Under the pieces are notes generated by a model. The model was given only the letters and a program-made list of their open reading frames with translations, had not been told where the DNA came from and ran no database searches. From Sedimentisphaerales bacterium (GTDB lineage Bacteria; Planctomycetota; Phycisphaerae; Sedimentisphaerales; Anaerohalosphaeraceae), in contig JAFGKL010000087.1 of assembly GCA_016928585.1 (NCBI GenBank), positions 1-35,553 of the forward strand: a stretch of 35,553 nucleotides of DNA. Direction: 5' to 3'. Both the position numbers and the translations under genes were made by a program. Below, piece by piece: positions 1 through 30,586 of this stretch (position 1 is the first letter of the stretch; each line of letters opens with the position of its first letter).

Positions 1-600
1 AATATTCTTCACCTTACCAGCAAAAATCTTATCGATTGGAAGTATCAATCGACGTTAAAGCTGGTATGCGACAAGGTTATCGACGCCTGCGTTTTTCAGT
101 TGCCAGACGGTACGTGGCGTATGTGGTACAATAATGAAAAAGACCGCAAGTCTATTTATTATGCCGACAGCCCGGACTTATTTACATGGGAAGATAAGGG
201 CAAGGCTATCGGCGATAAGCCCGGCGAGGGGCCGAAGGTGTTTCGGTGGAAGGGGCATTTGTGGATGGTCGTGGATAACTGGCAGGGGCTTGGCATTTAT
301 CGTTCTGACGATGCTCTGAACTGGGTCCGTCAAAAGGATAACCTCTTGGAGACACCCGGCACAGGCAAGGATGACGAATATAAAGGTCATCATCCCGATG
401 TTGTTATCAGTAATGATCGTGCGTACCTGTTCTATTTTACTCATCCCGGCCGAAGAGGGCCGGATGCCAATAAAGATACTGCCGAACAGCGGCGCAGCTC
501 GATCCAGGTAGTCGAACTGGAATATAAAGACGGCAGGATAGAATGTGACAGGGACAAGCCGACTGTTATTTTTTTAGAACCGAAATCAATTGCTAAATAA
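1..600 (+). CDS. C-terminal part of a five-bladed beta-propeller glycosidase (GH43-like), truncated at window start
   Basis: Frame +1 is open from base 1 (NILHLTSKNLIDWKYQSTLKLVCDKVIDACVFQLPDGTWRMWYNNE...) to TAA at 598-600. Repeated blade-like motifs such as WRMWYNN..IYYADSPDLFTWED and GIYRSDDALNW. Confidence 0.7.
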   Translation, partial: NILHLTSKNLIDWKYQSTLKLVCDKVIDACVFQLPDGTWRMWYNNEKDRKSIYYADSPDLFTWEDKGKAIGDKPGEGPKVFRWKGHLWMVVDNWQGLGIYRSDDALNWVRQKDNLLETPGTGKDDEYKGHHPDVVISNDRAYLFYFTHPGRRGPDANKDTAEQRRSSIQVVELEYKDGRIECDRDKPTVIFLEPKSIAK

Positions 601-601
601 G

Positions 602-1642: not shown

Positions 1643-1663
1643 AAAGTATTAAGGGGATCTGTT

Positions 1664-3127: not shown

Positions 3128-3152
3128 TTTATACGGTATGGAGGCTTATATA

Positions 3153-4706: not shown

Positions 4707-4764
4707 CTTTCCGGCACGAAATGTTTGCAGTAACAGACAGTGATAAAATACAGGGAATTTTATA

Positions 4765-7700: not shown

Positions 7701-8217
7701 AAAGCCGGGCGATTTTGTTCTTATGCAGTTTGGGCATAATGACGGGGGGCCGATGAATACCGGGCGCGCACGCGCATCGATCAAAGGTATTGGCAACCAG
7801 ACTCAGGAAGTAGTGATGGAAGCGACCGGCGAAAAAGAGATCGTACATACGTATGGCTGGTATATGCGAAAATATATTACCGACACAAAAGCCAAAGGCG
7901 CCGTGCCGATCGTCCTGTCGCCTATACCGAGAAATATGTGGAAGGATGGTGTTGTTGCAAGGGCCTCCGGCGATTACGGCAAATGGGCAGGGCAGGCGGC
8001 CAAGGCAAAAGGCGCATTCTTTATTGATCTGAACGAATTGATCGCAGTGCGATACGAAAAAGAAGGACAGGAAAAAGTCAGCAGTGAGTACTTCCTCAAA
8101 GATCACACCCACACAACTACCGCAGGTGCTAAATTGAATGCAAAAATCGTTGTTCAGGGAATTAACGGGCTGTCTGGTTGCGCCCTGTCCGATTACATTA
8201 TTTTGCATGCTGAATAA
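4765..8217 (+). CDS. Bifunctional GH106 alpha-L-rhamnosidase + CE12-like SGNH rhamnogalacturonan acetylesterase
   Basis: N-terminal ~900 aa GH106-like (NRPWTRWWWQGSAVDKENLTYLL...GTGWPFGGP). C-terminal ~240 aa PTVFIIGDSTVKNS...ARGGCSSRT...FVLMQFGHNDGG...DHTHTT (SGNH/CE12 blocks). Confidence 0.88.
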   Translation: MNTYRNRIFVRITVAILIFIIFTCGCVSQQRQSVSGKLNWSRPTMENRPWTRWWWQGSAVDKENLTYLLSQYQQAGIGGVEICPIYGVKGYEDKFLDFLSPEWMNMLEHTLKEGKRLGIGIDMTTGTGWPFGGPMVDKNTASSSVILKSYEMQEGKLADPLPKEPLEYLAAVSQEGQRIDITDKVEDGKLNWTSPEGQWKLYAVAVKSPVQKVKRSAPGGEGYVLDPYSTAAMDSYLKVFDEAFGGYKGPMPRAQFHDSFEYYGANWTTNFFDEFKSRCGYDLRDHIEALSGDGSEDTVARVQCDYHQTINELHLDYVQQWTKWSNSKGSQSRNQAHGAPGNLVDIYAASDIPETEIFRVVDEKQIPMLKLSSSAAHLKGSTYASAESFTWLNDHFQTSLADLKLATDFLFLTGVNHIFFHGIPYSPKESMWPGWQFYASVNFGPQAGLWHDLPAFNAYVTRCQSILQAGKPDNDVLLYLPIYDFWQKNDKLHMAFTLHNQDEWLHTSAFYRAAMSMWRKGYTYDAVSDQFLAQAECKNGKVIIGGNEYAAVVIPDCHLIPVDTMKNLLTLAKEGATILFEDSLPDDVPGLSNLHLRQTELQKMLNSVILQLGEKQKISFGKGTLMAAPLETMLAGANVPRESAMDSGIRFVRRNCPEGFNYLLVNRSPFAFDGWMALGKAAKSALLMDPLFDDRIGTAAMQNSEEATKVYIQLEQGQSLVLRTFTDKAISTPAWKYSRPSGFVTNIEGAWDIEFIDGGPVLPQSYQAKQLKSWTTRNDEEAKRFFGTGRYTIKFDKPSQDADDWMLDLGSVYESARVSLNGKLLAVLWSKPFRLHIGQYLLGGENTLEVEVTNLAANRIRDMDQRGVNWKYFYDINVVNVKYKPFDASDWPLQDSGLLGPVRLFPLKLVSLDDKPKPTVFIIGDSTVKNSTKGLLGWGNPIADHFDMSKINVRNLARGGCSSRTYQTEGLWDEIVKELKPGDFVLMQFGHNDGGPMNTGRARASIKGIGNQTQEVVMEATGEKEIVHTYGWYMRKYITDTKAKGAVPIVLSPIPRNMWKDGVVARASGDYGKWAGQAAKAKGAFFIDLNELIAVRYEKEGQEKVSSEYFLKDHTHTTTAGAKLNAKIVVQGINGLSGCALSDYIILHAE

Positions 8218-8383
8218 AATCTGCTTGCTGCCTTTATCTTAAACATATTATTGCTTGCATTTTTAGATGAATTTGATACCCTTGCAAATGAGGCTTAGTG
8301 CCGACAGCGAAAGATCGCGACAAATAACCAATAAAAGCTTTGTTGCTTAAATATTCATATTTGAAACATCTAAGGAGAGTAAT

Positions 8384-10972: not shown

Positions 10973-10985
10973 ACTGTCGCGAGCG

Positions 10986-13565
10986 TTACGGACAACCTAC
11001 GAGCGGTAGATACCCTGTCCAGGTTGAGGCAAACTCGGCGAGGTCCGCAAGGTCAACGTCTCCGCTTTGATCGATATCAGCGTTGTCGCACCAGTCAGGA
11101 CTGGTGCAGGTATCTTGATGCCATTGAGCAGCGAATTCGCTAAAGTCGTTCATGTCCACTTCACAATCGTCGTTAAGGTCGCCATCAAGCGCATTGACCT
11201 TGACAAACACTCCGCCCGGATACGGGTTTTCGTCAGGGTCATCGCTGGTGACCTGCAGTTGAGTCCTTCCGGCACACTGGCAGCAGTCCAGAGTTACCGT
11301 TACAGGCTGGCTGCCCGACGGGGCAATGCTATATGGAAGTGGTGGCGATATTCCAAGAACCCATGCCGGTGTACTAATGTCGGTTACATTCAGAATGCCT
11401 GTTCCATCGTTATAGATAATGAACTCTTCGTTCGGATCTGCCGGACAACTGTCTGTAAGTAACAATGGCTCGATGCGAATATCCGGTTCGACAGCGGCAG
11501 TTAAGCAGAAATTTAAATCTTCCCCTTCCTCAATCCCACTTATATCGCTGTATATTATCCCATCGCCGGTTCCTGAATCTATCCACAGGAACCAGCAGTT
11601 CTCGTCGCCCTGACCGGTAATAGAGACCCAACCGTCAGTTAATGTGCAGCATGTCGAAAGATCAACGCTGTAATATATATACTGGTTATAAATGCCACCA
11701 AAATCAAAATAAATACCAGTCGGGGTCACAGTAGGGGTGACCTGGTATGAACACACAGCAGTTCCCGGCTGGCCGGCATTGTCAGCATAGAAAGTAATAT
11801 CAAAAGAGGGATTGGACTCGGTGCAGTCTTCGAATAACGTTGTATCCATTTGGAACCCCCACCAGTGAATATCACATATCGGAGCAGTAATGCCAGTGAA
11901 GTTGTCATAAATATAATCTCCGAAAACTTCCTCGCTGAACGGTCCAGCAGGAAAGTCGTCCGGCCCGTAAGGCGGCTGGCCGTACAGTGTATTAGCCGGA
12001 CAGTCAAGCGTAGGTCCGCTGCCGCATGGAGGGTCAAGATTTGAACAAAGGGTGTTAGCGCTGAAACGTCCAGTGCAATTTTCCTGAGCGACACCGTCCT
12101 GACAAGTTCCTGTAGAGTCGTCACAGCAAGCGCCTATAGTTGATGAGCTGCTCGTTATGTCGAGCAGGTATAAACCTTCCTGAATGCCGGCACCATCGAC
12201 GATAATGTAGTATGTGTTACCTGCGGTAAGACTTAGCCCTGTTATTTCTGCCGTGGGAGGCAGGGTGTCGCAACTGCCATCATCACAGGCTATATGTGTT
12301 CCGGACCCCGGGGCTCCGCAAGTGTTTTCGTAAACGAACAATTTATTAAAAAATTCAGAATTACATGAAGAAATATCAATTACTTCATTGACAATCGGAG
12401 TGTATGAATAAACCACGTCGGGAGCACCGTCTGTGTCTGCCATAGTACATGATTCATAGTAGTCATTATTAGCCCCGGTTGTGACACCTACCGTACTGTA
12501 AGGCAGAGAAGGAATTACTGTAGCGTTAGCACAGTCTTCCCCGGCGTGATCCCCACAAGGTGGGACGAGTTCAGCGCAAGTTGTGTTTGGAGTAAAACGT
12601 CCTGTACATGAAGACTGTTCAACATTGTTTGTGCAGGTACCTGTTGTGTCATCGCAACAAGCACCTGTAATAGCACCTGTCAGGCTGACAGTCAATTCAT
12701 AATCGCCAGCATAATTGCCATAGCCATCAACGACGATATAATATGTACTGCCGAGATTGAAAACAACATAATCAATTCGAGATCGAGAACCGTCCGTACC
12801 ACAGGCATCATCGTTGCAGGCAATTTGAGTTCCTGACAGAACTTCACCGCACGTGTCTTCGTAAACATAGACTTTTGTATCATATGATGAATTGCACAGT
12901 TCTATTCTGACAGCAGCGGAATAAGAAGGGGTATACGAATAAACTACATCAGGAGCACCGGCTGCACTGGCGTAGCATATTTCATAATAATCATCGTTCA
13001 TGCTGACTGTAGTTCCCGTATCTGTATAAGGAAGCGATGTAATCTCTATGGCTGAGCTGCAGACATCGCCGGGCAACACGATCCTCTCGGTGACATTTAT
13101 TTCATATGTACCGGCGCTTTCGCCAAAGCCGTCAACGATGATATAATAGGTATTGCCGCCTGTAAGAGTGACAGAATTCAACTGTGACTTGAAGCCGTCA
13201 CTTCCGCAGTCGTCATCGTTACATGCAATTTGGCTGCCGGACTGGTAAGCACCACAAGTACTTTCATATACATATAGCTTTGTATCATATGCTGAGTTGC
13301 ACAGGTCGATATCTACCGTAATATTTGAAGCCGGAGTATATGAATAAACTACGTCAGGTGAACCCGGTGCGTCATAGGGACATATCTCGTCGTAGTCATC
13401 AGTTTGTCCGGTGGTATCTCCCGTGTCTGTGTACGGAAGCGCACTTATAACCGTAGCAGTGGAGCAGTCATCACCGCCCTGAGCCAGCACGGCTTGCGGC
13501 CAAACCGCCAATAATAAACATACTATCCCCGCAGCAATAATTTGGTTTTTTGAGAGTCTTCTCAT
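10986..13565 (-). CDS. Secreted protein with three PPC-like repeats, two Cys-rich ACCDD motifs and a C-terminal dockerin-like EF-hand pair
   Basis: Signal peptide; repeats DCSTATVISALPYTDTG...GGNTYYIIVDGFGESAGTYEINV; GACCDDTTGTC.. twice; tail GDLNDDCEVDMNDFSEFAAQW...DIDQSGDVDLADLAEFASTW. SD AAGGAGG upstream. Confidence 0.85.
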   Translation of the reverse strand: MRRLSKNQIIAAGIVCLLLAVWPQAVLAQGGDDCSTATVISALPYTDTGDTTGQTDDYDEICPYDAPGSPDVVYSYTPASNITVDIDLCNSAYDTKLYVYESTCGAYQSGSQIACNDDDCGSDGFKSQLNSVTLTGGNTYYIIVDGFGESAGTYEINVTERIVLPGDVCSSAIEITSLPYTDTGTTVSMNDDYYEICYASAAGAPDVVYSYTPSYSAAVRIELCNSSYDTKVYVYEDTCGEVLSGTQIACNDDACGTDGSRSRIDYVVFNLGSTYYIVVDGYGNYAGDYELTVSLTGAITGACCDDTTGTCTNNVEQSSCTGRFTPNTTCAELVPPCGDHAGEDCANATVIPSLPYSTVGVTTGANNDYYESCTMADTDGAPDVVYSYTPIVNEVIDISSCNSEFFNKLFVYENTCGAPGSGTHIACDDGSCDTLPPTAEITGLSLTAGNTYYIIVDGAGIQEGLYLLDITSSSSTIGACCDDSTGTCQDGVAQENCTGRFSANTLCSNLDPPCGSGPTLDCPANTLYGQPPYGPDDFPAGPFSEEVFGDYIYDNFTGITAPICDIHWWGFQMDTTLFEDCTESNPSFDITFYADNAGQPGTAVCSYQVTPTVTPTGIYFDFGGIYNQYIYYSVDLSTCCTLTDGWVSITGQGDENCWFLWIDSGTGDGIIYSDISGIEEGEDLNFCLTAAVEPDIRIEPLLLTDSCPADPNEEFIIYNDGTGILNVTDISTPAWVLGISPPLPYSIAPSGSQPVTVTLDCCQCAGRTQLQVTSDDPDENPYPGGVFVKVNALDGDLNDDCEVDMNDFSEFAAQWHQDTCTSPDWCDNADIDQSGDVDLADLAEFASTWTGYLPLVGCP

Positions 13566-13947
13566 AACACACCTCCTTAAACATGTGAATTTTATTTAGA
13601 AACAGAAAAGAACAAAACCTGAATGTGTTAGGTATTGTAGCGGATGCCATACATGTTTGTCAAGTGGATTATAGGCTGTCGTTAAGCCTCTTTGTAACTG
13701 TTAAAACTAATGTCAAAATATAGTTTTCTTCTATTTTGCTTTATTTGTTTGCGGTTTGGGTCTGTCAAAAAGTCGAATTTTAATGAACATTGAAGGTCCT
13801 TTTTAGTGACGGGTCATAAGATCGTGAAGGATTTTCGCTGCAAAGGCCATATATAAAGAAAAAACAGGCAAAATATGGTATAATTGCTGTATATGTAATG
13901 AGGGTGTTAAGGATATTTTTATTTTGATTTCAAGGGATTAAATTCGA

Positions 13948-16887
13948 ATGAAAAAACATTATAACTTTATGGCTGTTGTTGCAGCCTTTGTATTAAGTTT
14001 AGCTTCATATAATGTTAATGCAGCACGGTATATGGAGAATCTGGATCGTGGTGTTGTAGCGGTTCATCTTGGCGGAAGTCAGGTTTATGTCGGCTGGCGC
14101 ATGTTCGGTACTGAGCCGGATACGGTTGCCTACAATGTATATCGCGGGGCGGTAAAAATCAATTCATCCCCGATCACAGGCTCGACTAACTATACTGACA
14201 CCAATGGCAGCACAGCCAGTACCTACAGTGTAGCGGCGGTAATAGGCGGTGTTGAACAAGAACTCTCCGAGCCTGTCGGTGTATGGAGCGAGCAGTATCA
14301 CACGGTCCCGCTTGTAGTTCCTGCCGGCGGAACAACTCCCGACAGCGTTGCCTATACATACAGCCCTAATGATTGCAGTCTTGGAGATGTTGACGGCGAC
14401 GGACAGTACGAGATCATTTTAAAGTGGGACCCGTCCAACGCCAAGGACAATTCACAATCTGGATACACGGGCAATGTGTATCTTGATGCCTATGAAATTG
14501 ACGGTACGTTCCTGTGGAGGATCGACCTTGGCATCAATATCCGAGCTGGCGCCCATTATACACAGTTTATGGTATATGATTTTGACAACGACGGCAGGGC
14601 GGAAGTCGCCTGCAAAACCGCCGACGGAACGACCGACGGTCTCGGAACCGTGATCGGTAATGCCTCTGCGGATTATCGGAATTCAAGCGGCTATATTTTG
14701 TCGGGTCCGGAATATTTCACGGTCTTTGACGGGCTGACAGGCGAAGCACTCGACACGGTCAATTATTTTGTGCCAAGGGGTACTGTAAGCGACTGGGGCG
14801 ATAGTTACGGCAATCGTGTTGACCGTTTTCTTGCATGCATTGCATACCTTGACGGGCAGTCGCCAAGCATCGTGATGTGCAGGGGCTACTATACCCGCAC
14901 CGTTCTGGCGGCTTGGGATTTTGATGGTGTTGAACTTACACAGCGTTGGGTCTTTGACAGCGATAACGGCTATCCATCTTATGCGGGACAGGGGAACCAC
15001 AATCTAAGCGTTGGTGATGTGGACGGCGACGGCAAAGACGAGATCATGTACGGCGCCTGTGCGATAGATGATGACGGAACGGGGCTGTATTCCACTGGGT
15101 TGGGACATGGAGACGCGATGCATTTGTCTGACCTTGATCCGAGCCGGCCGGGGCTGGAAGTTTTTACGATACATGAAGGATCAGGGCCGGGCTCTTCCTT
15201 TAGAGATGCCTGGACCGGCGAAGTTCTTTGGATGAGTGCCGACGGCGATGTTGGCCGAGGTGTTTCGGCGGACATCGACGCAGGCTATCCCGGATTCGAA
15301 TGCTGGGGCTTTGGCGGTCTGCGAAGCTGCTCCGGCACAGTGATAACAAGTACAAGTCCGCCGTCAACAAATTTTGTTATATGGTGGGATGCCGACCTGA
15401 CACGGGAACTGCTTGATGCGGAAAAGATCGACAAATGGCACCCTGAATACAACTCCGGCAACGGCGGCAGTGAACGGCTGTTGACCGCATACAACTTTGG
15501 GGCAGATGCTATCAACGGAACCAAAGCCAACCCATGTCTGCAGGCCGATATGCTGGGTGACTGGCGAGAGGAAGTTATTTGGCGGCACTATGACAATACA
15601 AAACTGCTTATCTTTACGACGACTATCCCGACTACTCATCGGTTTTATACACTTATGCACGATCCTCAGTATCGCCTGAGCATAGCCTGGCAGAACGTTG
15701 CTTATAATCAGCCGCCGCATACGGGCTTTTTCCTGGGTGACGGCATGGGCGCGGCGCCGACGCCTGATATCATACTGGTTAACGGTACACCACCCGATCC
15801 TGATGCGATCTTTCGAGAAATATGGACCGGCATAAGCGGCGGCCTTGTCAGCGATCTTACATCTAATGCGAACTATCCCGATACGCCTTCGTCACAGGGT
15901 TATCTGACGCGGTTTGAAGGGCCGGCCAATTCGGGCGATGATTTTGGAACGCGCCTGCGGGCCTACCTGATACCGCAGGAGGACGGTGACTATACATTCT
16001 GGCTTGCTGCCGATGAAACTGCTGAGTTGTGGCTAAGCAACGATGCAACCGAGGACCAGGTCGTGCTGATAGCTTCTGTATCGGCGGCTACCGATCCGCT
16101 TGAGTGGGACAAGTACACCGAACAGCAATCCGCTCTTATCCATCTGGTTGCGGGAAGAAAATATTATGTCGAGATGCTGCATAAGGACGGCACCGGCGAC
16201 GATCACTACGCCGTGGCATGGCAGGGAGCAAGCATTACCCAGCAGATTATCGAAGGTGACTACCTTGTACCGTGGGCTCCGCGCATGGTTGGTGAATTGA
16301 CGGGCAACAACTATGTCAATATCGGTGACTTAATTGAATTTTCAGGTTACTGGTTAGATGAAAACTGCGGGCTTGAGCTGGATGTTGATATAAATGGTGA
16401 CTGCATTGTGAATATAGCAGACCTTGCTATCTTTGCAAAGTACTGGCTCAGCGGCACTGCTCTGGAAATTCTGACACTACAGATACAGGAAAACGAGCCG
16501 GGCTATGTTACCGTTATCGGCACCATTGATAATAACAACGCCGGCTATACCGGCGACGGATTTGCCAATACCTATAACGCTGTCGGTAATTATATCGAGT
16601 GGGCGGTTAATGTCCCGCTTGCCGGTGAGTTCGATCTTCAATGGCGATATGCCAACGGCAGCTCGACGATGCGGCCGGGAGCCGTCAGTGTTAACGGCAC
16701 AACGCAGGTAACCGGCATTGATTTTGCCCAGACGGGCAGTTGGACTACATGGGATGTCTCGCAGGTGGTTACTGTCAGTCTTGATGAGGGCTATAACCAG
16801 ATCAGGCTTGTGGCTGAAACTTCAGACGGACTGCCGAACATCGACTGGATGGAAATTACAGGGATAGCTCCGGCTCCGGGGAATTAG
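13948..16887 (+). CDS. Rhamnogalacturonan lyase PL11-like with PA14, dockerin-like and C-terminal CBM-like regions
   Basis: MENLDRGVVAVHLGGSQVYVGWRMFGTEPDTVAYNVYRG..., repeated GDVDGDGQYEIILKWDP/GDVDGDGKDEIMYG, LQADMLGDWREEVIWR. Then PA14-like block, VNIGDLIEFSGYWLDENC..DINGDCIVNIADLAIFAKYWL, and a beta-sandwich-like tail. Confidence 0.9.
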   Translation: MKKHYNFMAVVAAFVLSLASYNVNAARYMENLDRGVVAVHLGGSQVYVGWRMFGTEPDTVAYNVYRGAVKINSSPITGSTNYTDTNGSTASTYSVAAVIGGVEQELSEPVGVWSEQYHTVPLVVPAGGTTPDSVAYTYSPNDCSLGDVDGDGQYEIILKWDPSNAKDNSQSGYTGNVYLDAYEIDGTFLWRIDLGINIRAGAHYTQFMVYDFDNDGRAEVACKTADGTTDGLGTVIGNASADYRNSSGYILSGPEYFTVFDGLTGEALDTVNYFVPRGTVSDWGDSYGNRVDRFLACIAYLDGQSPSIVMCRGYYTRTVLAAWDFDGVELTQRWVFDSDNGYPSYAGQGNHNLSVGDVDGDGKDEIMYGACAIDDDGTGLYSTGLGHGDAMHLSDLDPSRPGLEVFTIHEGSGPGSSFRDAWTGEVLWMSADGDVGRGVSADIDAGYPGFECWGFGGLRSCSGTVITSTSPPSTNFVIWWDADLTRELLDAEKIDKWHPEYNSGNGGSERLLTAYNFGADAINGTKANPCLQADMLGDWREEVIWRHYDNTKLLIFTTTIPTTHRFYTLMHDPQYRLSIAWQNVAYNQPPHTGFFLGDGMGAAPTPDIILVNGTPPDPDAIFREIWTGISGGLVSDLTSNANYPDTPSSQGYLTRFEGPANSGDDFGTRLRAYLIPQEDGDYTFWLAADETAELWLSNDATEDQVVLIASVSAATDPLEWDKYTEQQSALIHLVAGRKYYVEMLHKDGTGDDHYAVAWQGASITQQIIEGDYLVPWAPRMVGELTGNNYVNIGDLIEFSGYWLDENCGLELDVDINGDCIVNIADLAIFAKYWLSGTALEILTLQIQENEPGYVTVIGTIDNNNAGYTGDGFANTYNAVGNYIEWAVNVPLAGEFDLQWRYANGSSTMRPGAVSVNGTTQVTGIDFAQTGSWTTWDVSQVVTVSLDEGYNQIRLVAETSDGLPNIDWMEITGIAPAPGN

Positions 16888-16942: not shown

Positions 16943-17428
16943 TTATACCTTTGCCACCATAACCGTGTAATTTTTTCCGTATGCTTTTGCGCATTTCGGA
17001 CAGGTTGTGTAGTAGGTATAGATCTTCTGCGGCTGTTTGCCCTTTGACTGTACGAATTGGTTCATCTGTTTGTACCATTTGGGGGCATCTTTGTATGGGC
17101 CCTCGAACACTTTTGTCAAAAAAGTTCCGGATATGAGAACCATTTCGCTGTCCGGCACGTCCTTCGAGGTTTCGATAAACAGACTTGTCTTCCACAGTGA
17201 ACACTCGTCGCACAGGAAAACTGGCGGTTGTTCTGTGGCAGCATCGGAACTTTGAATTTTCTCCATGTTCCTTACAACAACCTTTCCAAAACCTATCGGA
17301 ATGTGCATAAAAGCACGGACATTATCTTTGACGAATTTCTTATTCTGCCAGACGTGTTCGGTCTCGTCCCACGGAGCAGGGTCAAAGCGGGGACAACAGC
17401 CGGTTTCTGAGTTGTAAAGGTCTTCCAT
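16943..17428 (-). CDS. Uncharacterised protein with CxxC pairs (CDEC...CPKC)
   Basis: 161 aa ORF starting MEDLYNSETGCCPRFDPAPWDE. SD-like GGAGC upstream. Last member of a tightly packed minus-strand gene string. Confidence 0.7.
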   Translation of the reverse strand: MEDLYNSETGCCPRFDPAPWDETEHVWQNKKFVKDNVRAFMHIPIGFGKVVVRNMEKIQSSDAATEQPPVFLCDECSLWKTSLFIETSKDVPDSEMVLISGTFLTKVFEGPYKDAPKWYKQMNQFVQSKGKQPQKIYTYYTTCPKCAKAYGKNYTVMVAKV

Positions 17429-17845: not shown

Positions 17846-19168
17846 TTATGCTCCTTTCTTATTATGTTCTTCGCGAATAATTTCCTTGAAACTGTTCCTT
17901 CGCCATTTTGTAAATTCATCGTTATATAATTTTGCAACGAGTTTTTTGAAACCGTCGGCTAACTGTTCCGGCGTCATATTCGTTGGTATGAAATTCACAT
18001 CAAACAGTGTACACTTTTGCCATGCGTTTGGCTCGATCAGTCTGTTTTCTGCAAGCAATCTGTCATAAAGAGGCGTGCCGGGGAACGGAGTAAGGATCGT
18101 GACCTGGACTTCATAAAGCCGGCATTGCTTTACGAATTCAAATACTCTATCGAATATATCAGTGGTGTGGCCGTCAAGACCAATTACAAAACAACCGTTA
18201 ACGGTAATCCCGTGAGATTGAATATTCCTGATTGCGTCAGCATATTTTGGGAACTTCTTAAATTTCCAGTTATTCCTCAGCTCAAGACCCTGCAACGACG
18301 GCTGTTCGGGACTTTCCAGGCCTATCAGGACCTGACTACAACCGGTTTGTTCCATTAACTCAAGCAACTGATCGTCTTCGCTTACGGATAGGTCCGTTTC
18401 GGCAAACCACTTTAGTTTTTTGCCTTTTAAATGACCAAGTAACTGTCTCCAATAGGAATGATTTACAAAAGTATTGTCGTCGGCGAATTCAATGAACGGG
18501 TGCTGCCATATATCAAGGATAGCATCGATCTCAGCGATAACGTTTTCTATAGGCTTTTGCTTATAATTTTCGGAAAGAATGATCGAACTGGCACAAAACT
18601 CACATTTATGAGGGCAACCCCTGCTTGTTTGGACAGTAAGGCGGTTGTACTTCGAAATATCGAGCAGACCAAAGTCAGGTACAGGTGAATTGTTCATATC
18701 GAAAGACTTTTTATCTAAGCCGTAGAATTTTGACATAGTTCCCTGCTGACAGTCATTCAATACCTGCTGCCAGTACAACTCTCCTTCTCCTATAACCACG
18801 GCATCGCAATATTCGGCAGCCTCCTGCGGCAGCGCGGTTACATGCGGTCCGCCGATCACGACCGGTATATTCATTTTTTTGTAACGGGCCGCCAGTTCGT
18901 ACGCTTCCGATATCTGAGCACTGTAGCTTGAAATGGCAACGAGATCGAAACCATCCGGCAACGAAGACAGTTCTTTTATATCGGGAACCTCAATATAACT
19001 GACCTTGTGCTGTTTAGGTGTCAGTGCTGCCAGTGTAAGCAAACCGAGAGACGGAAGGGAAGCTATTGTCTTACTGCGCTCTACAAAGCCGGGAAGGGTT
19101 AAGCCCATTTGAAGGAGTTCCGTATCACAGACGCGTATTCCGCTCATTGCTATTAATGCTATATTCAT
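17846..19168 (-). CDS. B12-binding domain radical SAM protein (DUF4070/HpnJ-like architecture)
   Basis: N-terminal cobalamin-binding-like fold (GFDLVAISSYSAQISEAYELAARYKKMNIPVVIGGPHVTALP), TSRGCPHKCEFCASS = CxxxCxxC, C-terminal PFPGTPLYDRLLAENRL. Confidence 0.9.
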   Translation of the reverse strand: MNIALIAMSGIRVCDTELLQMGLTLPGFVERSKTIASLPSLGLLTLAALTPKQHKVSYIEVPDIKELSSLPDGFDLVAISSYSAQISEAYELAARYKKMNIPVVIGGPHVTALPQEAAEYCDAVVIGEGELYWQQVLNDCQQGTMSKFYGLDKKSFDMNNSPVPDFGLLDISKYNRLTVQTSRGCPHKCEFCASSIILSENYKQKPIENVIAEIDAILDIWQHPFIEFADDNTFVNHSYWRQLLGHLKGKKLKWFAETDLSVSEDDQLLELMEQTGCSQVLIGLESPEQPSLQGLELRNNWKFKKFPKYADAIRNIQSHGITVNGCFVIGLDGHTTDIFDRVFEFVKQCRLYEVQVTILTPFPGTPLYDRLLAENRLIEPNAWQKCTLFDVNFIPTNMTPEQLADGFKKLVAKLYNDEFTKWRRNSFKEIIREEHNKKGA

Positions 19169-19634: not shown

Positions 19635-20114
19635 CTAGAATCGGCAGTCAATCTGCCGGATACAGAGCTTTTTTATCAGCCATAATATCGGCTTTGATGT
19701 GAGAGGGAAAAAATTCTCGAATGGCTGGATGTTATCTACCTTTGGCCGTTCATCAACATCATGCTTTATGCCGGGGCATCCCTTATCATAGTAGAGCCGG
19801 CCCTGAACATTATACCACGGGTATTCGCGGCAGCCCTTTGGCCTGTCAGCATAGATAGAACAAAGATTATTTTTCAGCAAACAACACACACTTTTTTCGG
19901 CCCGGATAAACATACCATGCCTGGTTCTGACTATCGCGTTACCGTCTATTTTTTGTGATTCGGCTATTGTTACTACGGGCACGCCTATGGTTTTGCAGCA
20001 CTTTGCGCATTTGTCGGCAAGGCAATCCAGACGGGTCGGTTCTGAAGCAGGAACAAGCTTCAGCAGGCCGTTGCGTTTTGCTTTGATTATGGTTCTTATC
20101 ATGGCAAGATCCAT
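19635..20114 (-). CDS. YkgJ-family cysteine cluster protein
   Basis: CLADKCAKCCKTIGVPV...CCLLKNNLCSIYADRPKGCREYPW...CPGI. Starts 1 bp after the symporter stop. Confidence 0.85.
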   Translation of the reverse strand: MDLAMIRTIIKAKRNGLLKLVPASEPTRLDCLADKCAKCCKTIGVPVVTIAESQKIDGNAIVRTRHGMFIRAEKSVCCLLKNNLCSIYADRPKGCREYPWYNVQGRLYYDKGCPGIKHDVDERPKVDNIQPFENFFPLTSKPILWLIKKLCIRQIDCRF

Positions 20115-20115
20115 A

Positions 20116-21600
20116 TTAAGACGATCTTTTTGTTTTACTGGCTAAAAAACCAACTTCGAACAGGATCGAAGATACGAGAAGGCTAAGGACAGGCGATAAG
20201 AACACAAGGCTGGTATTACCCGTGAACCTTCCGTAAACCGCGCTGGACCAGCCGGTAACAAATCCCATCGATACGGCCGTAACCGCCCAGACGGACATGC
20301 GTTTGAGTGTATCGCGTTTAAGGGTAAGGGCTGCGATCACAAGCGGACAAAGACCAAGCTGGGCTCCATATATCGCAAAGACCATGTCTGCGATTGAAAA
20401 GCCGGCATATGATAACAATTGCACGATCAAGGTTGAGGCTGCCGCTGCAAGGACGAGTATCAAGCGTGAGATCAAAAGCTGCTTTTTGGATTCGACACGT
20501 TCCTTAAGCGATAACTTTGTTATATGCGAAAAAATATCTTCATAAAGCGTGTGCGAAACCGCTATAAGCTGGGTCGAAGCAGTTGAGAGCATTGCGCCGT
20601 ACAATCCAAGAATAGCAAAGAACAATACCATGGTGGAAACAGCGCCGCCGGAGCCTCGCACTACTTGTAACACCGCCACCAAAGGATTAACGTCCTGATC
20701 CGGCGTTATTATCATAAACGCAAAACAGGCAAGCAAAGCGAACAATCCCCACGTTGCAGCCGAGCTGAACACGCTGTTCCACAGGCCGCCCGTTACGGTT
20801 CGCCCTTTTTGTGAGCCGGCTATTCGCTGCCATATACTCATATCGGAAATAAAAGTCGGAACGTTTATCACGAATATGCCAAGCAGAAAAGCAGGCAGGC
20901 CGTCTTTATACGAAAAGTTTAATAATCCCGACGGTATCTTTATGATGTTTTCCGACCAGCCGCCGTGACTAACAACATAGTATATATAGAACGCAGGCAG
21001 TGCCAGCAGCAACAGCCAAATAGAGATCATCTGAAGCCTGTCCGTTACGATCACGGCACGAAATCCACCCGAAGCCGTATAGGTGAACGCTACTGCCGAC
21101 AAAGCGATTATAACCAGTGGCGTAGGGATACCCGGAACGAGTCCGGCAAAAAATTTCGACCCGACCGTAAGTTCAACTGCGAAGGCAAGGAGAAACCCAA
21201 GGCTTGTGCAGGCAGCGCCTACATATTGGAGCGTTCTGGAATTAAATTCCGTCCCTAAAAATTCGTGCAGTGTCGGCCGATGGTCATAATTATTTATCTT
21301 CTCCCATATCTTGCCTGCAAACAATCTTACAAGCAGCAGGCCGGCGGAGGTCGTGATCACCGTCCAGAAAAGCCAAACGCCAAGACGCTGCGCAAGTTCA
21401 AAGAAGGCCATTATTACAGTGGCCAACGATATTGTTGTCGCTACCGTACTCGATGAGAATTCGCGGGGGTTATCCACCCTTGCCTGGTTACTTAAGCCCA
21501 TAGGGAGCATGTCGGAGATCTTTTTAGTGTTGCGGCCGAAGAAGAATCCTACTGAAAGATAAACAGCAAATGCAAATAACAGAGCAATTATTATTGTCAT
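20116..21600 (-). CDS. Sodium:solute symporter (SSS) family transporter
   Basis: 494 aa, many TM segments; YTASGGFRAVIVTDRLQMISIW and SAMLSTASTQLIAVSHTLYEDI-like SSS motifs. ATGA overlap with upstream gene. Confidence 0.88.
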   Translation of the reverse strand: MTIIIALLFAFAVYLSVGFFFGRNTKKISDMLPMGLSNQARVDNPREFSSSTVATTISLATVIMAFFELAQRLGVWLFWTVITTSAGLLLVRLFAGKIWEKINNYDHRPTLHEFLGTEFNSRTLQYVGAACTSLGFLLAFAVELTVGSKFFAGLVPGIPTPLVIIALSAVAFTYTASGGFRAVIVTDRLQMISIWLLLLALPAFYIYYVVSHGGWSENIIKIPSGLLNFSYKDGLPAFLLGIFVINVPTFISDMSIWQRIAGSQKGRTVTGGLWNSVFSSAATWGLFALLACFAFMIITPDQDVNPLVAVLQVVRGSGGAVSTMVLFFAILGLYGAMLSTASTQLIAVSHTLYEDIFSHITKLSLKERVESKKQLLISRLILVLAAAASTLIVQLLSYAGFSIADMVFAIYGAQLGLCPLVIAALTLKRDTLKRMSVWAVTAVSMGFVTGWSSAVYGRFTGNTSLVFLSPVLSLLVSSILFEVGFLASKTKRSS

Positions 21601-22334
21601 GATCGCTTAGCCTTGCTTTGATGGATTTTCAGTTCGACGTTAATACGTTCTTTAAGTCCGCCGGGGATGTTCGGATAATTATTTTTGGACATTTCTGTTA
21701 GTACGCATAGTTCGGGACCCGGATACAATTCCACCTTCCAGCCCTGCTCACTAAGTGCACTAAAGACGGCTATCTCTTCCAGCAGATACCTGCGCGACAA
21801 CTCTACGGCTTCTTCCTGAGAAACCGCAAGTTTAAGATTCCTTTTCTTCTGCCGCTCAATGAAAGAAACCGCATCCTTTAGCACGGCGGCTCTGAACGAT
21901 TCATCCGAATCAAAAAGCCCGTCCAGTATTTCCTTTGCACCCTTATATTCATTGCTGTTTAAGCATGGCTGCCACCGAGTCAGCCCAAGGCGCTCGCTTG
22001 GTATCTGACTGAAGAACTTATCTGTCTTTTCAAAAAAAAGATCGCCAAATTCATGTGACGCTTTTCCTGCTTCATCAGGGCTTAGGCCGCTAAATATCTG
22101 CTCGTTATAGCGTCTTAGATAATCACCGGCAACGACCAGTACCCGTTCGAAGTTCCCCAATCCCCAAAGCAATAAAGCCTGCAGGGATTTCCCATAAAAA
22201 CCCGGGTTGTCGAGACTGATGCCAATATAGCATTTCTTATACGAGAAAAGTTTCTCGTTAGAGATCTTCGGTGTAGTCGTTACGATACTGACTGAAGGCA
22301 TATTCAATTTTTCAAAGTCGGAATCCGATCTCAT
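21597..22334 (-). CDS. Putative tRNA-dependent cyclodipeptide synthase (CDPS)
   Basis: Motif-level match to AlbC-type CDPS from memory: CYIGISLDNPGFYGKSLQALLLWGLGNFERVLVVAGD (Ser pocket), NSNEYKGAKEILDGLFDSDESFRAAV, RRYLLEEIAVF (Y-x3-E pair) and VELYPGPEL (Y-P). ATG at 22334 has AAGGAA SD 7 nt upstream; the ORF track starts at an in-frame GTG at 22337. Confidence 0.8.
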   Translation of the reverse strand: MRSDSDFEKLNMPSVSIVTTTPKISNEKLFSYKKCYIGISLDNPGFYGKSLQALLLWGLGNFERVLVVAGDYLRRYNEQIFSGLSPDEAGKASHEFGDLFFEKTDKFFSQIPSERLGLTRWQPCLNSNEYKGAKEILDGLFDSDESFRAAVLKDAVSFIERQKKRNLKLAVSQEEAVELSRRYLLEEIAVFSALSEQGWKVELYPGPELCVLTEMSKNNYPNIPGGLKERINVELKIHQSKAKRS

Positions 22335-23466
22335 CACACATTTCCTTGATAGTTACCAGTTTCTGGCATGTTTCTTCATAAGTTAGACTTGTTCCATAAA
22401 TATTGGTTGCTTCTGAGCCGACGACGGCATTGTCTACGAACAGCACTACATATCCGTTATCCAGGATATATGCCCATAGATTATTCATTTCCATATCTCT
22501 GAATCGCAGCATGTTATCTATTTCGTCCGGTTTGAACCTGCCGGGCTCTATAACCAGTTTTTTGTTCAGTATTATATCGAATGACTCAAGTTCCCGGGTG
22601 TATTTTATACGCTCGGATTCATATCGTTTTTTCAGGCAGTCCGAGATCATTTGATGTGTTGTTTTTTTCTTGCTGCCCGGCCCTTCAGAATGGATTATCA
22701 GCATCTTCCTGAAGTTCTCCTGCCAGAGAAAACTATAATCGAAGGTATCGACATCCATAATTATCTCAGGTCTGCGAACGATCCCGATTATATGTGAGAT
22801 CCTGCTTTTGTGTTTGGCCTCCCAGACGGCAAGTTCCTCCGGGGTTACACGCGGCGTTATCCCTTTAAGGTTGTCAACCAGTTGTAAAATAATATCGAGG
22901 TAGAAGGGGGCCACACCCTGGAGAATGTTGCCGATCTTACTGTAAAGCTGGCCGGATATAGGATTTTCGAAGGTGGGTGTCATGAAATTGTCGATCTGGT
23001 CGGCACTTAGCGCTACAGGTTCGGTTGTGAGGAATGCTTCAAGTTCCTTGACTATACCTTCGGATAATATTTGACGCGAAACAAAACTCGATTCTGCCGT
23101 TCCGAGTATGTCCCAGACATTTTCAAGCCTGCTCATCACACGAGACAGGGCCGGGTTTGCTTCTACGATAAGATCTGCCATGGTTCGCATGTCGTCGATC
23201 GATTGTTTGACCGAGTCGAGTATTTGTATTGCGACCAATACCTGGCATAAAGGAACAAACTCGATGACCTCAAATGTCTGAACGACCTTAATTGCCCTTG
23301 CCGGCTGGAGAATGGCAGAGCCGGCCTCAATCATTCTGTAATGGGATGCGGCAAGACCAAGAGAAGAGGCTATTTCTGACGAGGAAACGCCTCCCATTTT
23401 GTCTCTTAAGTTTTGAAATGCCAATCCCAGCCCCTGGGCTAAAGGATTTCTGGCTTTCTGGGCCAT
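22312..23466 (-). CDS. XRE/HTH-like regulator with long uncharacterised C-terminal region
   Basis: N-terminal LGLAFQNLRDKMGGVSSSEIASSLGLAASHYRMIEAGSAILQPARAIKVV resembles an HTH_XRE domain. SD AGGAG upstream. Stop overlaps the CDPS start. Confidence 0.75.
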   Translation of the reverse strand: MAQKARNPLAQGLGLAFQNLRDKMGGVSSSEIASSLGLAASHYRMIEAGSAILQPARAIKVVQTFEVIEFVPLCQVLVAIQILDSVKQSIDDMRTMADLIVEANPALSRVMSRLENVWDILGTAESSFVSRQILSEGIVKELEAFLTTEPVALSADQIDNFMTPTFENPISGQLYSKIGNILQGVAPFYLDIILQLVDNLKGITPRVTPEELAVWEAKHKSRISHIIGIVRRPEIIMDVDTFDYSFLWQENFRKMLIIHSEGPGSKKKTTHQMISDCLKKRYESERIKYTRELESFDIILNKKLVIEPGRFKPDEIDNMLRFRDMEMNNLWAYILDNGYVVLFVDNAVVGSEATNIYGTSLTYEETCQKLVTIKEMCDEIGFRL

Positions 23467-23524: not shown

Positions 23525-23553
23525 ATTATAAGCCTATGTGCAAAAAATGGCAA
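23525..23553 (-). promoter_or_regulatory. Sigma70-like promoter for the XRE-CDPS transcription unit
   Basis: Minus strand TTGCCA - 17 nt - TATAAT, about 60 bp upstream of ATG at 23466. Confidence 0.6.
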
Positions 23554-23675
23554 GCTAATTTGTCAAAATGATTTGCAGGGTCACATAAAAACATGCTTTA
23601 AGTCTTTTAATAGCTTGTGTTTATAATACCAGACAAATATATGTAAATAAAAATAGACAAAATTGCAAAAAAAAC

Positions 23676-23704: not shown

Positions 23705-23826
23705 TTAATTAGAGAGATCAGATAGCTCATTGGCAACAAATAGTGATCCAAATCTTATATAACCGATCGTTGACCATCCCAGTTTTACAGCATGACAGAT
23801 CCGGAAGAACAGAATGGAGGTTCATT

Positions 23827-25731
23827 ATGTTAGTATCAAAGTATAAAATTAATAGACGACTGGCAATCTCTTTAGTAGCCCTGGTTGTATTCATTTCGCC
23901 TTTGTATGCTGCCGGCAGACAAAGACAAGCATCTGCTGGTAAAAGTGCTGCGCCGAGGGCAACTGCACCAGCTGCTGCTGCGTCGAGACCTGCCACTACT
24001 GCAAGACAATCTGTGTCAAAAGCAGCCGCACCAAGGGCGGCCACACCAACCGTACCGAGCGCGACGGCAAGGCAATCTCGCCCGGCAGCGACCGCAACAA
24101 GATCGGTATCCTCTGCCAGAACCGTAAACAGAGCATCCAGATCAACTGCAAGGGCGACTGCGCCGAGGACCACTGTTACAAGGTCATCCTCACCAAGGAC
24201 TGTTACTGCAAGGACAACTACATCAAGGGCGACTACAGCCGGCAGACAAACTTCTCCGGTAAAGGTTTCGGCTGTACCAACCAGAAGGACTACTTCAACA
24301 GGAACTGCTGCATCTGCTGTAAGACCTGCGAGTACAGCCCGTACTGCCAAAGCAAGCAGCAATAGAACATCTAATGTTGCGACCAGGATCGCAGCACCAA
24401 CCTCCCGGACTTTGGTAAAAAAGAGTCAGCCTTCGGCAAAGACCACTGCGTCTACTATAACCAAATCTTCAAGTTTGATCGGAAGAACCAGTTCAAAACA
24501 AACAGTGGCCACTCGTATAGGTTCGAATAGAACATCCACCAGGCTTACAGACACCGGCAGAAAAAGTAAGCTCAGACAGGACCGGATTACAGATAGAACT
24601 TCAGTCGGTTCCAGGTCGTTGCAGACGAGGATTGGCGAACAAAGAACATCTGCAGCCAGAAGCAGGACCGATCGAGTTTTAGGAGATATTGCCGACAGGA
24701 CAAGGTTAAATAGCAGATCGCTTTCTTCTGTACATTCTCCCCGGATCCGGTCGGGTGCTGAACATCACAGCAGGACAAACAACTATTCAAGAGTGGTTTA
24801 TGAAGATTATTATCATACGACAGGGTACGGCCGTCGCCATGCACATATATACAGGGACATCTATGACAGAATTCAATACAGGATAATCTGGCCGAGGTAT
24901 TACTATCCCGTATATTACAGTTGGGGACCGAGGTTCACATTCAGCTACGTATATCCCTATTATCACCGTAAATATATCTTCGTGAGTCTGGGCGGATATT
25001 GGCCGAGTTACAGATATGTTCGATATTACTGGTACGGCTGCCATCCGTACGAATGGTATGGCTACTATCCTATCGCACGCGAAGTAACCGGCGATACATA
25101 TAACTACTATACGTACAATTACTACTCGACCGGATACTCGCAGGCCGGGTATGCCAATAACCAGGTATCCGGAGTTGATGAAAATACCTTTGCCGATGTT
25201 CGTGAAAGACTTGCAGCCGAAGCAGCCGAAGAACCTGCCGCTGAAACCCCGGCTGACAACTTATTTGACGAGGCGGTAACGGCCTTTGAAGGGGCTAATT
25301 ATGACCTGGCTGCCGATAAGCTGATTGCAGCGATGGAGTATGCCCCTGATGATATGATACTTCCGTTTGCTTATGCACAGGCACTTTTTGCCGGCGAAAG
25401 ATATACAGATGCTGCACAGGCCCTTCGTGATGCTATGGAGAATGCAACAACGGAAAAAGAGGGCGTCTTTTATCCTCGCGGGCTCTACTCTGAGGACGAA
25501 GTTTTATTTGGGCAGATCGATCAGCTTGCCGAGAGGGCACGGGTTTTCAGTTTCGATACCAACTATCAACTTGTTCTGGGTTATCAGCTTTTGGGTATCG
25601 GTAAGATCGAAGAAGCCGAAGGTCCGCTTCGCCAGGCTTTAACTGCTGACGAAAATATACCCGCCGCTGCAAAACTGCTCAATCTTTTGGAGCGGATCAA
25701 AGCCGAAGCTGCAGAAAGATCGGCCGAGTAA
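23827..25731 (+). CDS. Secreted protein: Arg/Ser/Thr/Ala-rich low-complexity region, Tyr-rich region and C-terminal TPR-like domain
   Basis: SD GGAGG before ATG 23827 (MLVSKYKINRRLAISLVALVVFISPLYAAG). Low-complexity ~aa 35-290, YYHTTGYGRRH...YYWYGCHPYEWYGYYP, then A-x-F-x-x-A TPR-like helices. Confidence 0.8.
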   Translation: MLVSKYKINRRLAISLVALVVFISPLYAAGRQRQASAGKSAAPRATAPAAAASRPATTARQSVSKAAAPRAATPTVPSATARQSRPAATATRSVSSARTVNRASRSTARATAPRTTVTRSSSPRTVTARTTTSRATTAGRQTSPVKVSAVPTRRTTSTGTAASAVRPASTARTAKASSNRTSNVATRIAAPTSRTLVKKSQPSAKTTASTITKSSSLIGRTSSKQTVATRIGSNRTSTRLTDTGRKSKLRQDRITDRTSVGSRSLQTRIGEQRTSAARSRTDRVLGDIADRTRLNSRSLSSVHSPRIRSGAEHHSRTNNYSRVVYEDYYHTTGYGRRHAHIYRDIYDRIQYRIIWPRYYYPVYYSWGPRFTFSYVYPYYHRKYIFVSLGGYWPSYRYVRYYWYGCHPYEWYGYYPIAREVTGDTYNYYTYNYYSTGYSQAGYANNQVSGVDENTFADVRERLAAEAAEEPAAETPADNLFDEAVTAFEGANYDLAADKLIAAMEYAPDDMILPFAYAQALFAGERYTDAAQALRDAMENATTEKEGVFYPRGLYSEDEVLFGQIDQLAERARVFSFDTNYQLVLGYQLLGIGKIEEAEGPLRQALTADENIPAAAKLLNLLERIKAEAAERSAE

Positions 25732-27503: not shown

Positions 27504-27866
27504 TCTGCTTAAAGATCAGATGGCAAAGTCCGTCATTTTTTACCAAATTACCTGGTTGCTCAAATGTGGATACCGGAAAACGAACTTACTGAAAAACTGT
27601 TTTCTTGAGTTTTAGCTTGTCATGGCTGTTGTGAGCAAGGGGGATGGGGTTAGCCAAATTCGACAAATTGACGGATGAAGTGCAGATGGAACTCCTCGAC
27701 GATAAATTCAAAGCCGGGGAGTTGCTAAATCCAGACAAGGCCTTGTTATTAATATCCGTTCGTGATAACATAAGAGAGTGGCTTGGCAACAGTTTTATGA
27801 CTGTAATGCCACAAAGTTATTTGAAATGTACTGCATTTGGTTATTATAGTTGAGAAAAGGTGCGGA

Positions 27867-29114
27867 ATGAAATTAGGAAAATATTCAATGGGAGTTGGTG
27901 ATCGATTTGGTCATCAGGCCGAGGCCCAACTGGAGGCGATCTTAAGGGCGAAGGCCGATTCTATGGGTGTTGAACCCGTATGGAACAAATCGTTCAGGGA
28001 ACACAGTATTATTGGGACCGCACCTGCGGATGTTCGAAAGCAGGCCGATAAAGCAGTTAAGGCTAAAGGCTGGAAAGATGCTTATTTTGTCGATGCTGAC
28101 CATATAAATCTTTTGAATGTAAATGGTTTTATCGAATACAGTGATTTTTTCACGCTTGATGTTGCGGATTTTATGGGCAAGTCAGCAGATAAGGAAGACA
28201 TTGACGCCTTTATAGATAAACACAGCAAATTTGCCGGCGTTTTTACTATTGATGGTATTGAGCAGGAACTTGATATAACCAAAGAACAGATACTGGAAAT
28301 GGCGCAGAAGTATCTAAGGGCTGTCAAGGAGGCCGGCAAGATCTATCGACATATAGAAAAAGCCAAGGGAAAAGATAATTTTATTACCGAAGTGTCGATA
28401 GATGAAACCGATCACCCGCAAAACCCGATCGATATGCTTTTTATTTTAGCGGCAATAGCTGATGAAAACATCCCCGCCCAGACAATAGCGCCTAAATTTA
28501 CAGGCAGGTTTAATAAGGGGGTTGATTATGTCGGGGATGTCAAACGGTTTGAGAAGGAATTCAACGATGACCTGGCAGTGATAAGATTTGCCATAAATGA
28601 ATTTGGATTGCCTGCAAATCTTAAGCTAAGCATTCATTCCGGAAGTGACAAGTTCTCCATATACGAACCTATTAACAGGGCTATAAAAAAATTCAATGCT
28701 GGGCTTCATTTAAAAACAGCCGGTACTACCTGGCTGGAAGAATTGATTGGACTTGCTTCAGCCGGGGGAACCGGCTTTGAAATAGCCAAGACAGTTTATG
28801 CAAGGTCCTTTGATAGATTTGATGAATTGTGCGGGCCTTATGCTACGGTAATTAGTATTGATAAAGATAAGCTCCCTTTGCCGGACGAAGTGGCAGCGTG
28901 GTCCAATGAAAAATTTGCTAAAGTTTTGCGTCATGATCAAAGCTGTGACCAATATGATGTCAATGTGCGGCAGCTTCTGCACGTAGGATATAAAATAGCC
29001 GCAGAATTAGGCGGCCAATTTACCGGTGTTCTTGAAGAGAATAAAGATGTAGTGGCGAAGTGTGTAACTGAGAATATTTTAAAACGCCATATAATACCTG
29101 TATTTAAGAAATAA
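27867..29114 (+). CDS. uxaE: Tagaturonate epimerase family protein (UxaE-like)
   Basis: MKLGKYSMGVGDRFGHQAEAQLEAI...YFVDADHINLLNVNGFI...FTLDVADFMG resembles UxaE; adjacent to uxaC. ATG at 27867 has AAAGG SD. Confidence 0.8.
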   Translation: MKLGKYSMGVGDRFGHQAEAQLEAILRAKADSMGVEPVWNKSFREHSIIGTAPADVRKQADKAVKAKGWKDAYFVDADHINLLNVNGFIEYSDFFTLDVADFMGKSADKEDIDAFIDKHSKFAGVFTIDGIEQELDITKEQILEMAQKYLRAVKEAGKIYRHIEKAKGKDNFITEVSIDETDHPQNPIDMLFILAAIADENIPAQTIAPKFTGRFNKGVDYVGDVKRFEKEFNDDLAVIRFAINEFGLPANLKLSIHSGSDKFSIYEPINRAIKKFNAGLHLKTAGTTWLEELIGLASAGGTGFEIAKTVYARSFDRFDELCGPYATVISIDKDKLPLPDEVAAWSNEKFAKVLRHDQSCDQYDVNVRQLLHVGYKIAAELGGQFTGVLEENKDVVAKCVTENILKRHIIPVFKK

Positions 29115-29176
29115 GATCAATATAATGATCGCCTGTTATATAACTGGCAGGGAAATATTCATAGGAGAAAGCGAAG

Positions 29177-30586
29177 ATGGATTTTTTGACAGAAGATTTT
29201 CTTTTACAGACGAAAACCGCAAAACAGCTTTATCATGAGCATGCGGCCAAAATGCCCATTTATGATTATCATTGCCATCTGCCAACTCAGGAAATAGCCG
29301 AAGACAAACAGTTTGAGAATATGACGCAGATATGGCTCTATGGGGATCATTATAAATGGCGGGCAATGAGAGCCAACGGTGTTGATGAAAGGTTTTGTAC
29401 CGGGGATGCAGGCGATTGGGAAAAGTTCCAAATGTGGGCGAAGACCGCACCATATTGTCTTAGAAATCCTCTTTACCATTGGACACATATGGAACTTAAA
29501 AAACCCTTCGGAATAACAGGAAAGCTTTTGAATCCTGATACCGCCAAAGATATCTACGAAACCTGTAATGAAAAGCTAAGCACGCCGAAGTTCAGTACCC
29601 GTGGTATTATGCGGCAGATGAATGTCAAAATAGTTTGTACAACAGATGATCCTGTAGATTCTCTTGAGCACCATAAAAAGATCGCAAAAGACGGTTTTGA
29701 GATAAAAGTTCTTCCTGCATGGCGGCCTGACAGGGGGATGACTACGACAAATATAGAGGAGTTAAATAACTGGATCGATCGGCTGGCCGCGGTTGCTGAT
29801 GTGGATATTAAGAATTACGCATCATATATAGAAGCCATAAGGAAAAGGCATGACTATTTTCATCAGGTTGGATGCAGAATTTCCGATCATGGAATAAATA
29901 CGGTTTATGCCGAGGATTACACAGAGGAACAGATCAAAGTGATATTTGATAAAATAAGAGTTGGCAAAGGTCTTGATGCGACTGAGAAGATAAAATTCAG
30001 CTCTGCGATGATGTATGAATTTGCGCTTATGGATGCTGAAAAAGGCTGGACACAGCAATTACATCTTGGCGCTCTTAGAAACAGTAATACTAGGATGATG
30101 AGAACACTTGGAGCTGATACGGGCTTTGACTCTATAGGCGATCTTGAAATAGCCGAACCTCTGGCAAAATTTCTTGATAAGCTTGACATTGACAACAAGC
30201 TGCCGAAAACAATTCTTTATAATCTTAATCCCCGCGATAATGAGCTCTTGGCATCGATGACCGGTAATTTCCAGGATGGATCAATACCCGGCAAAATGCA
30301 GTACGGATCGGCATGGTGGTTCCTCGATAACAAGGAAGGCATGGAAGAACAATTGAAAGCCTTGTCAAATCTTGGCTTGCTGAGCAGGTTCGTTGGGATG
30401 CTTACGGATTCGAGAAGTTTCCTTTCTTATCCGCGGCACGAGTATTTCCGCAGGATTCTATGCAACCTGCTGGGCAATGATGTTGAAGGCGGTCTGTTGC
30501 CTAAGGACATGAAGATGTTGGGACAAATGGTAGAGGACATATCCTTTAACAATGCCAAAAATTATTTTGGTATCGATATAGATTGA
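29177..30586 (+). CDS. uxaC: Glucuronate/galacturonate isomerase
   Basis: YDYHCHLPTQEIAEDKQFENMTQIWLYGDHYKWRAMRANGV, TTDDPVDSLEHHK, WWFLDNKEGMEEQLKALSNLGLLSRFVGMLTDSRSFLSYPRHEYFRRILC. Confidence 0.96.
   Translation: MDFLTEDFLLQTKTAKQLYHEHAAKMPIYDYHCHLPTQEIAEDKQFENMTQIWLYGDHYKWRAMRANGVDERFCTGDAGDWEKFQMWAKTAPYCLRNPLYHWTHMELKKPFGITGKLLNPDTAKDIYETCNEKLSTPKFSTRGIMRQMNVKIVCTTDDPVDSLEHHKKIAKDGFEIKVLPAWRPDRGMTTTNIEELNNWIDRLAAVADVDIKNYASYIEAIRKRHDYFHQVGCRISDHGINTVYAEDYTEEQIKVIFDKIRVGKGLDATEKIKFSSAMMYEFALMDAEKGWTQQLHLGALRNSNTRMMRTLGADTGFDSIGDLEIAEPLAKFLDKLDIDNKLPKTILYNLNPRDNELLASMTGNFQDGSIPGKMQYGSAWWFLDNKEGMEEQLKALSNLGLLSRFVGMLTDSRSFLSYPRHEYFRRILCNLLGNDVEGGLLPKDMKMLGQMVEDISFNNAKNYFGIDID

Follow-up and report, generated by a model that had tools for sequence, protein, structure and literature searches.

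A putative cyclodipeptide operon joining a cyclodipeptide synthase to a regulator, an SSF symporter and a CxxCxxCC protein in Phycisphaerae

Introduction

In the literature that we searched, tailoring enzymes, for the most part oxygenases, are described as the usual company of bacterial cyclodipeptide synthase (CDPS) genes, and a CDPS pathway from a planctomycete was not found there. A 2014 review likewise reports that one or more tailoring enzymes are generally encoded close to a bacterial CDPS gene (PMC4159871). The window analyzed here, a 35,553-nt stretch of a Sedimentisphaerales bacterium (contig JAFGKL010000087.1), was preliminarily described as carrying a putative CDPS gene. This locus raises the questions of whether the gene indeed encodes a CDPS, and with which partners a planctomycete would make and use a cyclodipeptide. 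As will be seen, it offers a compact test case for how a cyclodipeptide serves the bacterium that makes it when a standard tailoring enzyme is absent.

Results

A minus-strand gene of the window encodes a CDPS

The gene lies at positions 21597–22337 of the minus strand and encodes a 246-aa protein when started from the GTG at 22337, or a 245-aa protein from the ATG at 22334, the latter being the version given in the preliminary description. The coordinates of that description were correct, but it omitted the strand, which is minus, as the forward reading of 21597–22334 is full of stops. Residue numbers used here follow the GTG start, and the earlier ones are one lower. Every motif quoted earlier was found in the minus-strand ORF, namely G39-I40-S41-L42-D43-N44, W58...F63-E64-R65, D72, EYKGAKEILDGLFDSDESFRAAV, and, toward the C-terminus, RRYLLEEIAVF (Y184, E188) and ELYPGPEL (Y205-P206).

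The HMM search proposed in the preliminary description gave 40.7 bits against the Pfam CDPS family (PF16715), exceeding the curated cut-off of 27, and the ORF also matched the NCBIfam model TIGR04539 with 71.2 bits (cut-off 45, E 8.5e-20), while its PDB sequence matches at E < 1e-3 comprised CDPS structures only. The motif and family match is far above chance. An AlphaFold (AF2) model built from 11 orthologues had a mean pLDDT of 92 and a pTM of 0.89. When it was searched against the PDB with Foldseek, each of the top 44 matches was a CDPS, variants of tyrosyl-tRNA synthetase came next at E ~1e-4, and the best match was 9j61, a CDPS of Streptomyces sapporonensis (TM 0.80/0.91, 23% identity across the fold). 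The model and its matches place in this protein the Rossmann core related to class Ic aminoacyl-tRNA synthetases that the preliminary description had anticipated.

The active site is intact. Ser37, Asn40, Tyr178 and Glu182 of the Streptomyces noursei enzyme AlbC, an NYH-type CDPS whose reference sequence used here is identical to PDB 3oqv, aligned with S41, N44, Y184 and E188 of the window CDPS. The C-terminus of AlbC was placed wrongly by MAFFT; hence the equivalents of Tyr202/Pro203 were read from the YPG alignment with 9j61 and 5ocd, and are Y205/P206. The catalytic S41, Y184, E188 and Y205, together with N44 and P206, were invariant in 17/17 orthologues. D72 was also invariant across the orthologues and, judging from its spacing, appears to correspond to D58, the additional active-site Asp of ParcuCDPS (PMC7613923). 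Family scores, CDPS-only PDB matches, fold and catalytic residues all bear out the CDPS identity, and the enzyme is predicted to build a small cyclic molecule from two amino acids carried on tRNAs.

The CDPS is of the XYP type and has an unlisted pocket pattern

It was previously suggested that the Asn together with the Tyr-Pro would mix the NYH and XYP subfamily signatures. Such a hybrid is ruled out, since XYP is defined by X40-P203 with X being any residue (PMC13062777; PMC7613923), and since 9j61 also has Asn40 with Tyr-Pro, carrying SLEN...VYPG at the corresponding sites. The protein fails the NYH definition (Asn40, Tyr202, His203), as the His of AlbC is replaced by Pro206, which is invariant in the 17 orthologues. 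A profile of the orthologues scored 120 bits on 9j61 and from 103 down to about 43 bits on the solved XYP enzymes, compared with 38 bits on AlbC, 27 on YvmC and 15 on Rv2275. On the sequence evidence of N44, Y205 and P206, and of profile scores closest to the XYP enzymes, the window CDPS is classified as an XYP enzyme with X being Asn.

Among solved enzymes, 9j61 is the closest in both sequence and fold, and we infer that it is probably BcmA, which makes the cyclo(Ile-Leu) of bicyclomycin. It is, however, only 23% identical to the window CDPS and has an unlike P1 pocket at the equivalents of AlbC positions 33 and 119. The next-best profile and fold matches were the XYP enzymes 5ocd (Fluoribacter dumoffii), 5mlp (Rickettsiella grylli) and 5mlq (Nocardia brasiliensis), which share X40, Y202 and P203 with the window CDPS but are about 19–21% identical to it and differ at position 40 where aligned.

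The P1 pocket was assigned by sequence alignment to AlbC positions 33, 35, 65, 67, 119, 185, 186 and 200. Applied to 9j61, this scheme returned FGLGC[VI]F, the pattern listed for cLI/cLL enzymes. For the window CDPS and its orthologues, it predicted Y37, G39, V/I69, G71, W122, V191, F192 and E203, which were nearly invariant in 17/17 genomes; therefore, the same product is probably made by all carrier species. The pattern Y-G-V/I-G-W-V-F-E matched no specificity motif of Table 2 of PMC5816076, so the product is not predictable from those motifs.

A four-gene order is conserved in one order of Planctomycetota

The gene order HTH384–CDPS–SSF was found in 17/17 CDPS-bearing genomes. Of the order's 162 genomes, 17 carry the CDPS; these 17, and no others, also carry HTH384, and neither gene was found in the remaining genomes of a 395-genome sample of the phylum. 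The SSF gene lies directly 3′ of the CDPS gene in all 17 genomes, two SSF genes being incomplete at contig ends, and a CxxCxxCC gene follows next in 14 loci, the contig ending earlier in the other three (L016, L062 and L064). In the window, the CDPS gene shares ~25 nt with HTH384 and 4 nt with the SSF gene, whose ATG lies over the CDPS stop, and the CxxCxxCC gene starts after a 1-nt gap behind the SSF stop. Pairwise divergences of the three main operon proteins were correlated (Spearman 0.60–0.76, from pairs that are non-independent). Because every carrier belongs to one order, this linkage partly reflects shared ancestry.

The carriers span two families of that order. The TPR662 and propeller-type genes upstream are often kept beside the operon, and the same pair also occurs without the operon in relatives. 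This distribution fits vertical descent with loss, although gain at a fixed place is also conceivable. A single-query scan of genome contigs returned one relative, JAUWIU010000015.1, a result with little bearing on spread outside the phylum. A match in G305, of 20.5 bits and with internal stops, was treated as spurious. PADLOC matched none of the four operon proteins to an anti-phage system, and a search for plasmid carriage of the operon gave no match.

No oxygenase, methyltransferase or cyclodipeptide oxidase was conserved at the CDPS loci of the relatives. Likewise, the MFS transporter, five 2-OG dioxygenases and P450 of the bicyclomycin cluster (PMC6934819) have no counterpart in the window operon. 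The class of the transporter is by itself not new, because sodium solute symporters, as well as radical SAM enzymes, are already among the CDPS neighbours listed in PMC4159871. Judged against the literature searched, the novelty lies in the layout, a transporter–cysteine-cluster fusion without a standard tailoring enzyme, whereas the CDPS itself belongs to a known family.

The first gene encodes an HTH protein and is preceded by an operon-specific element

HTH384, the first gene of the operon (22312–23466, minus strand), encodes an HTH protein of the XRE type, whose C-terminal region of ~300 aa has no recognised fold. An HTH_3 domain was detected in 10/10 HTH384 orthologues, at best with 3.7e-6, the window copy itself being under the cut-off. 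The structure model was poor (pLDDT 62), and Foldseek returned nothing significant for this low-confidence model. Weak matches to phospholipase-D-like folds (MITD1, PLD, PPK1) recurred for residues ~210–345 at E 0.5–2; going by the model, this part might be a degenerate ligand-binding domain.

A ~44-bp promoter/operator-like element, TTTTGACAAATTAGCTTGCCATTTTTTGCA-N8-TATAAT, is located 5′ of HTH384 at 23525–23568 of the minus strand. In each of the 14 loci whose 5′ region is complete, TTTTGACAAATTAGYTTGCTGTTTTTTGCA was found 5′ of HTH384, followed by TATAAT after 7–8 nt. The best-match scores were 19–30 of 30, with shuffled means near 16; that of L017 (19) was not above chance. With at most two mismatches allowed, the pattern had a single genomic site in each of 13/13 cassette-bearing genomes, always 5′ of HTH384, including genome G806, which was outside the set used to define the pattern, and it was absent from the 5 cassette-less genomes searched. 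Its sequence looks like a sigma-70-type promoter (TTGCYN, 17 nt, TATAAT) combined with a local operator, for which HTH384 is the candidate binder. The arrangement is that of a self-contained and probably autoregulated operon in Phycisphaerae.

The last two genes encode a symporter and a cysteine-cluster protein

The gene at 20116–21600 (minus strand) encodes a 494-aa membrane transporter of the SSF (sodium:solute symporter) family, with 38 bits against PF00474 (cut-off 22.8). For a comparison of the sodium site, no solved SSF protein was matched in the PDB by sequence at E ≤ 0.01, a 13-sequence profile included. The gene at 19635–20114 (minus strand) encodes a 159-aa CxxCxxCC protein (PF03692, 37.3 bits, cut-off 23) with eight conserved cysteines, the first motif being CX4CX2CC. 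In three loci (L013, L018 and L021), the SSF and CxxCxxCC proteins are fused into a single protein of ~650 aa, and Pfam confirmed the CxxCxxCC part in all three. The operon thereby links the CxxCxxCC domain, about which little is known, to a definite partner, the transporter, and to a pathway. The CxxCxxCC protein most likely binds a metal or an Fe-S cluster, its task being either modification of the cyclodipeptide or gating of the transporter.

Discussion

Proposed function of the operon

We consider it rather probable that HTH384, the CDPS, the SSF symporter and the CxxCxxCC protein form a four-gene cyclodipeptide operon, in which a dedicated regulator governs the synthesis of one particular cyclodipeptide and the symporter carries this product through the membrane. 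By analogy with its family, the CDPS would use two aminoacyl-tRNAs, the first aminoacyl group being loaded on Ser41 and the second then added, and would release one preferred cyclodipeptide by cyclisation. HTH384 would control the operon through the ~44-bp element in front of it, and its C-terminal region would probably sense the product or a related cue, which is a guess given the pLDDT of 62. As suggested by its family and linkage, the SSF protein would transport the product, or a compound derived from it, either into or out of the cell. The CxxCxxCC protein, with a bound metal or Fe-S cluster, may modify the cyclodipeptide or gate the transporter.

The strongest alternative assigns the CxxCxxCC protein one of these two roles, that of an Fe-S tailoring enzyme such as a diketopiperazine methyltransferase, with the SSF protein exporting or importing the modified product. 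Among the proteins conserved with the CDPS, it alone is neither a transporter nor a regulator, and a tailoring enzyme would be expected from the general neighbourhood of bacterial CDPS genes (PMC4159871). A catalytic role is possible by analogy, because FliB, whose CX4CX3CC motif resembles CX4CX2CC, methylates lysines of flagellin and binds a [4Fe-4S] cluster (PMC8598068). However, FliB was compared by motif alone, its likeness, eight conserved cysteines included, stays at that level, and its substrate and size differ from those of the window protein. The fusion to a transporter, moreover, also suits a regulatory or metal-handling role. We also know of no demonstrated activity for most PF03692 proteins. 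This alternative is considered less likely than the first reading. In its boldest form, the cysteine-cluster protein would be the sole candidate tailoring enzyme, an Fe-S protein coupled or fused to the symporter, and the operon would combine oxygen-independent modification with transport under a dedicated autoregulator of a new type; this version is speculative and somewhat doubtful.

The operon could also serve metal acquisition, in which the cyclodipeptide or a derivative would chelate a metal, the SSF protein would import the complex, and the cysteine cluster would receive the metal. A cysteine-rich partner fused to the transporter is consistent with this reading, and there is a precedent in Bacillus, where pulcherriminic acid binds iron. 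This compound is a known iron-chelating cyclodipeptide derivative (PMC7731078). However, an oxidase able to make a chelating diketopiperazine is not conserved at the loci, and a metal-regulator signature was not found in HTH384. To our knowledge, SSF proteins are not classical metallophore importers either, and we regard metal acquisition as improbable.

An ordinary secondary-metabolite cluster, in which the cyclodipeptide would be tailored by the B12-binding radical SAM protein encoded downstream (17846–19168, minus strand), appears more improbable still. The gene shares its strand with the operon, and radical SAM enzymes are on record as neighbours of CDPS genes (PMC4159871), but it lies outside the conserved unit, and a gap of 92 nt and a small, unrelated membrane gene stand between it and the operon. 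It was missing from the CDPS loci of all relatives, and close orthologues (64–66%) were found in two of the genomes only, on contigs other than that of the CDPS. Being unlinked to the CDPS in relatives, the radical SAM protein was rejected as a tailoring partner.

Finally, it is hardly credible that the CDPS-like protein no longer makes peptide bonds and instead employs aminoacyl-tRNA in sensing or in some other transfer reaction, since, despite its distance from the solved enzymes (23% identity to 9j61 over the fold) and the unusual charged E203 in the predicted P1 pocket, all catalytic residues and D72 are invariant among the orthologues and the pocket residues are nearly so, as expected of a working enzyme.

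Other genes of the window

The polysaccharide-degrading character proposed in the preliminary description for this planctomycete is borne out by genes for pectin and rhamnogalacturonan degradation in the window. Region 590–16887 encodes a pectic acid lyase, GH28, a SASA esterase, GH106 with a GDSL lipase domain, GH2 and a family 11 rhamnogalacturonan lyase, and region 27837–30586 encodes a tagaturonate epimerase and a glucuronate isomerase. Amid the polysaccharide genes, an 859-aa ORF (10986–13565, minus strand) had no Pfam match at 1e-5. A 161-aa protein (16943–17428, minus strand), matching PF20603 (Bact_hydrolase) very strongly with 211.8 bits, adjoins the small membrane protein and the radical SAM gene. 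On the plus strand, a 662-aa protein is encoded divergently from the operon at 23743–25731; its gene often adjoins the operon in relatives and also occurs without it. The N-terminal half of this protein is very rich in Ala, Thr, Arg and Ser, the middle is Tyr-rich, and the C-terminus is TPR-like.
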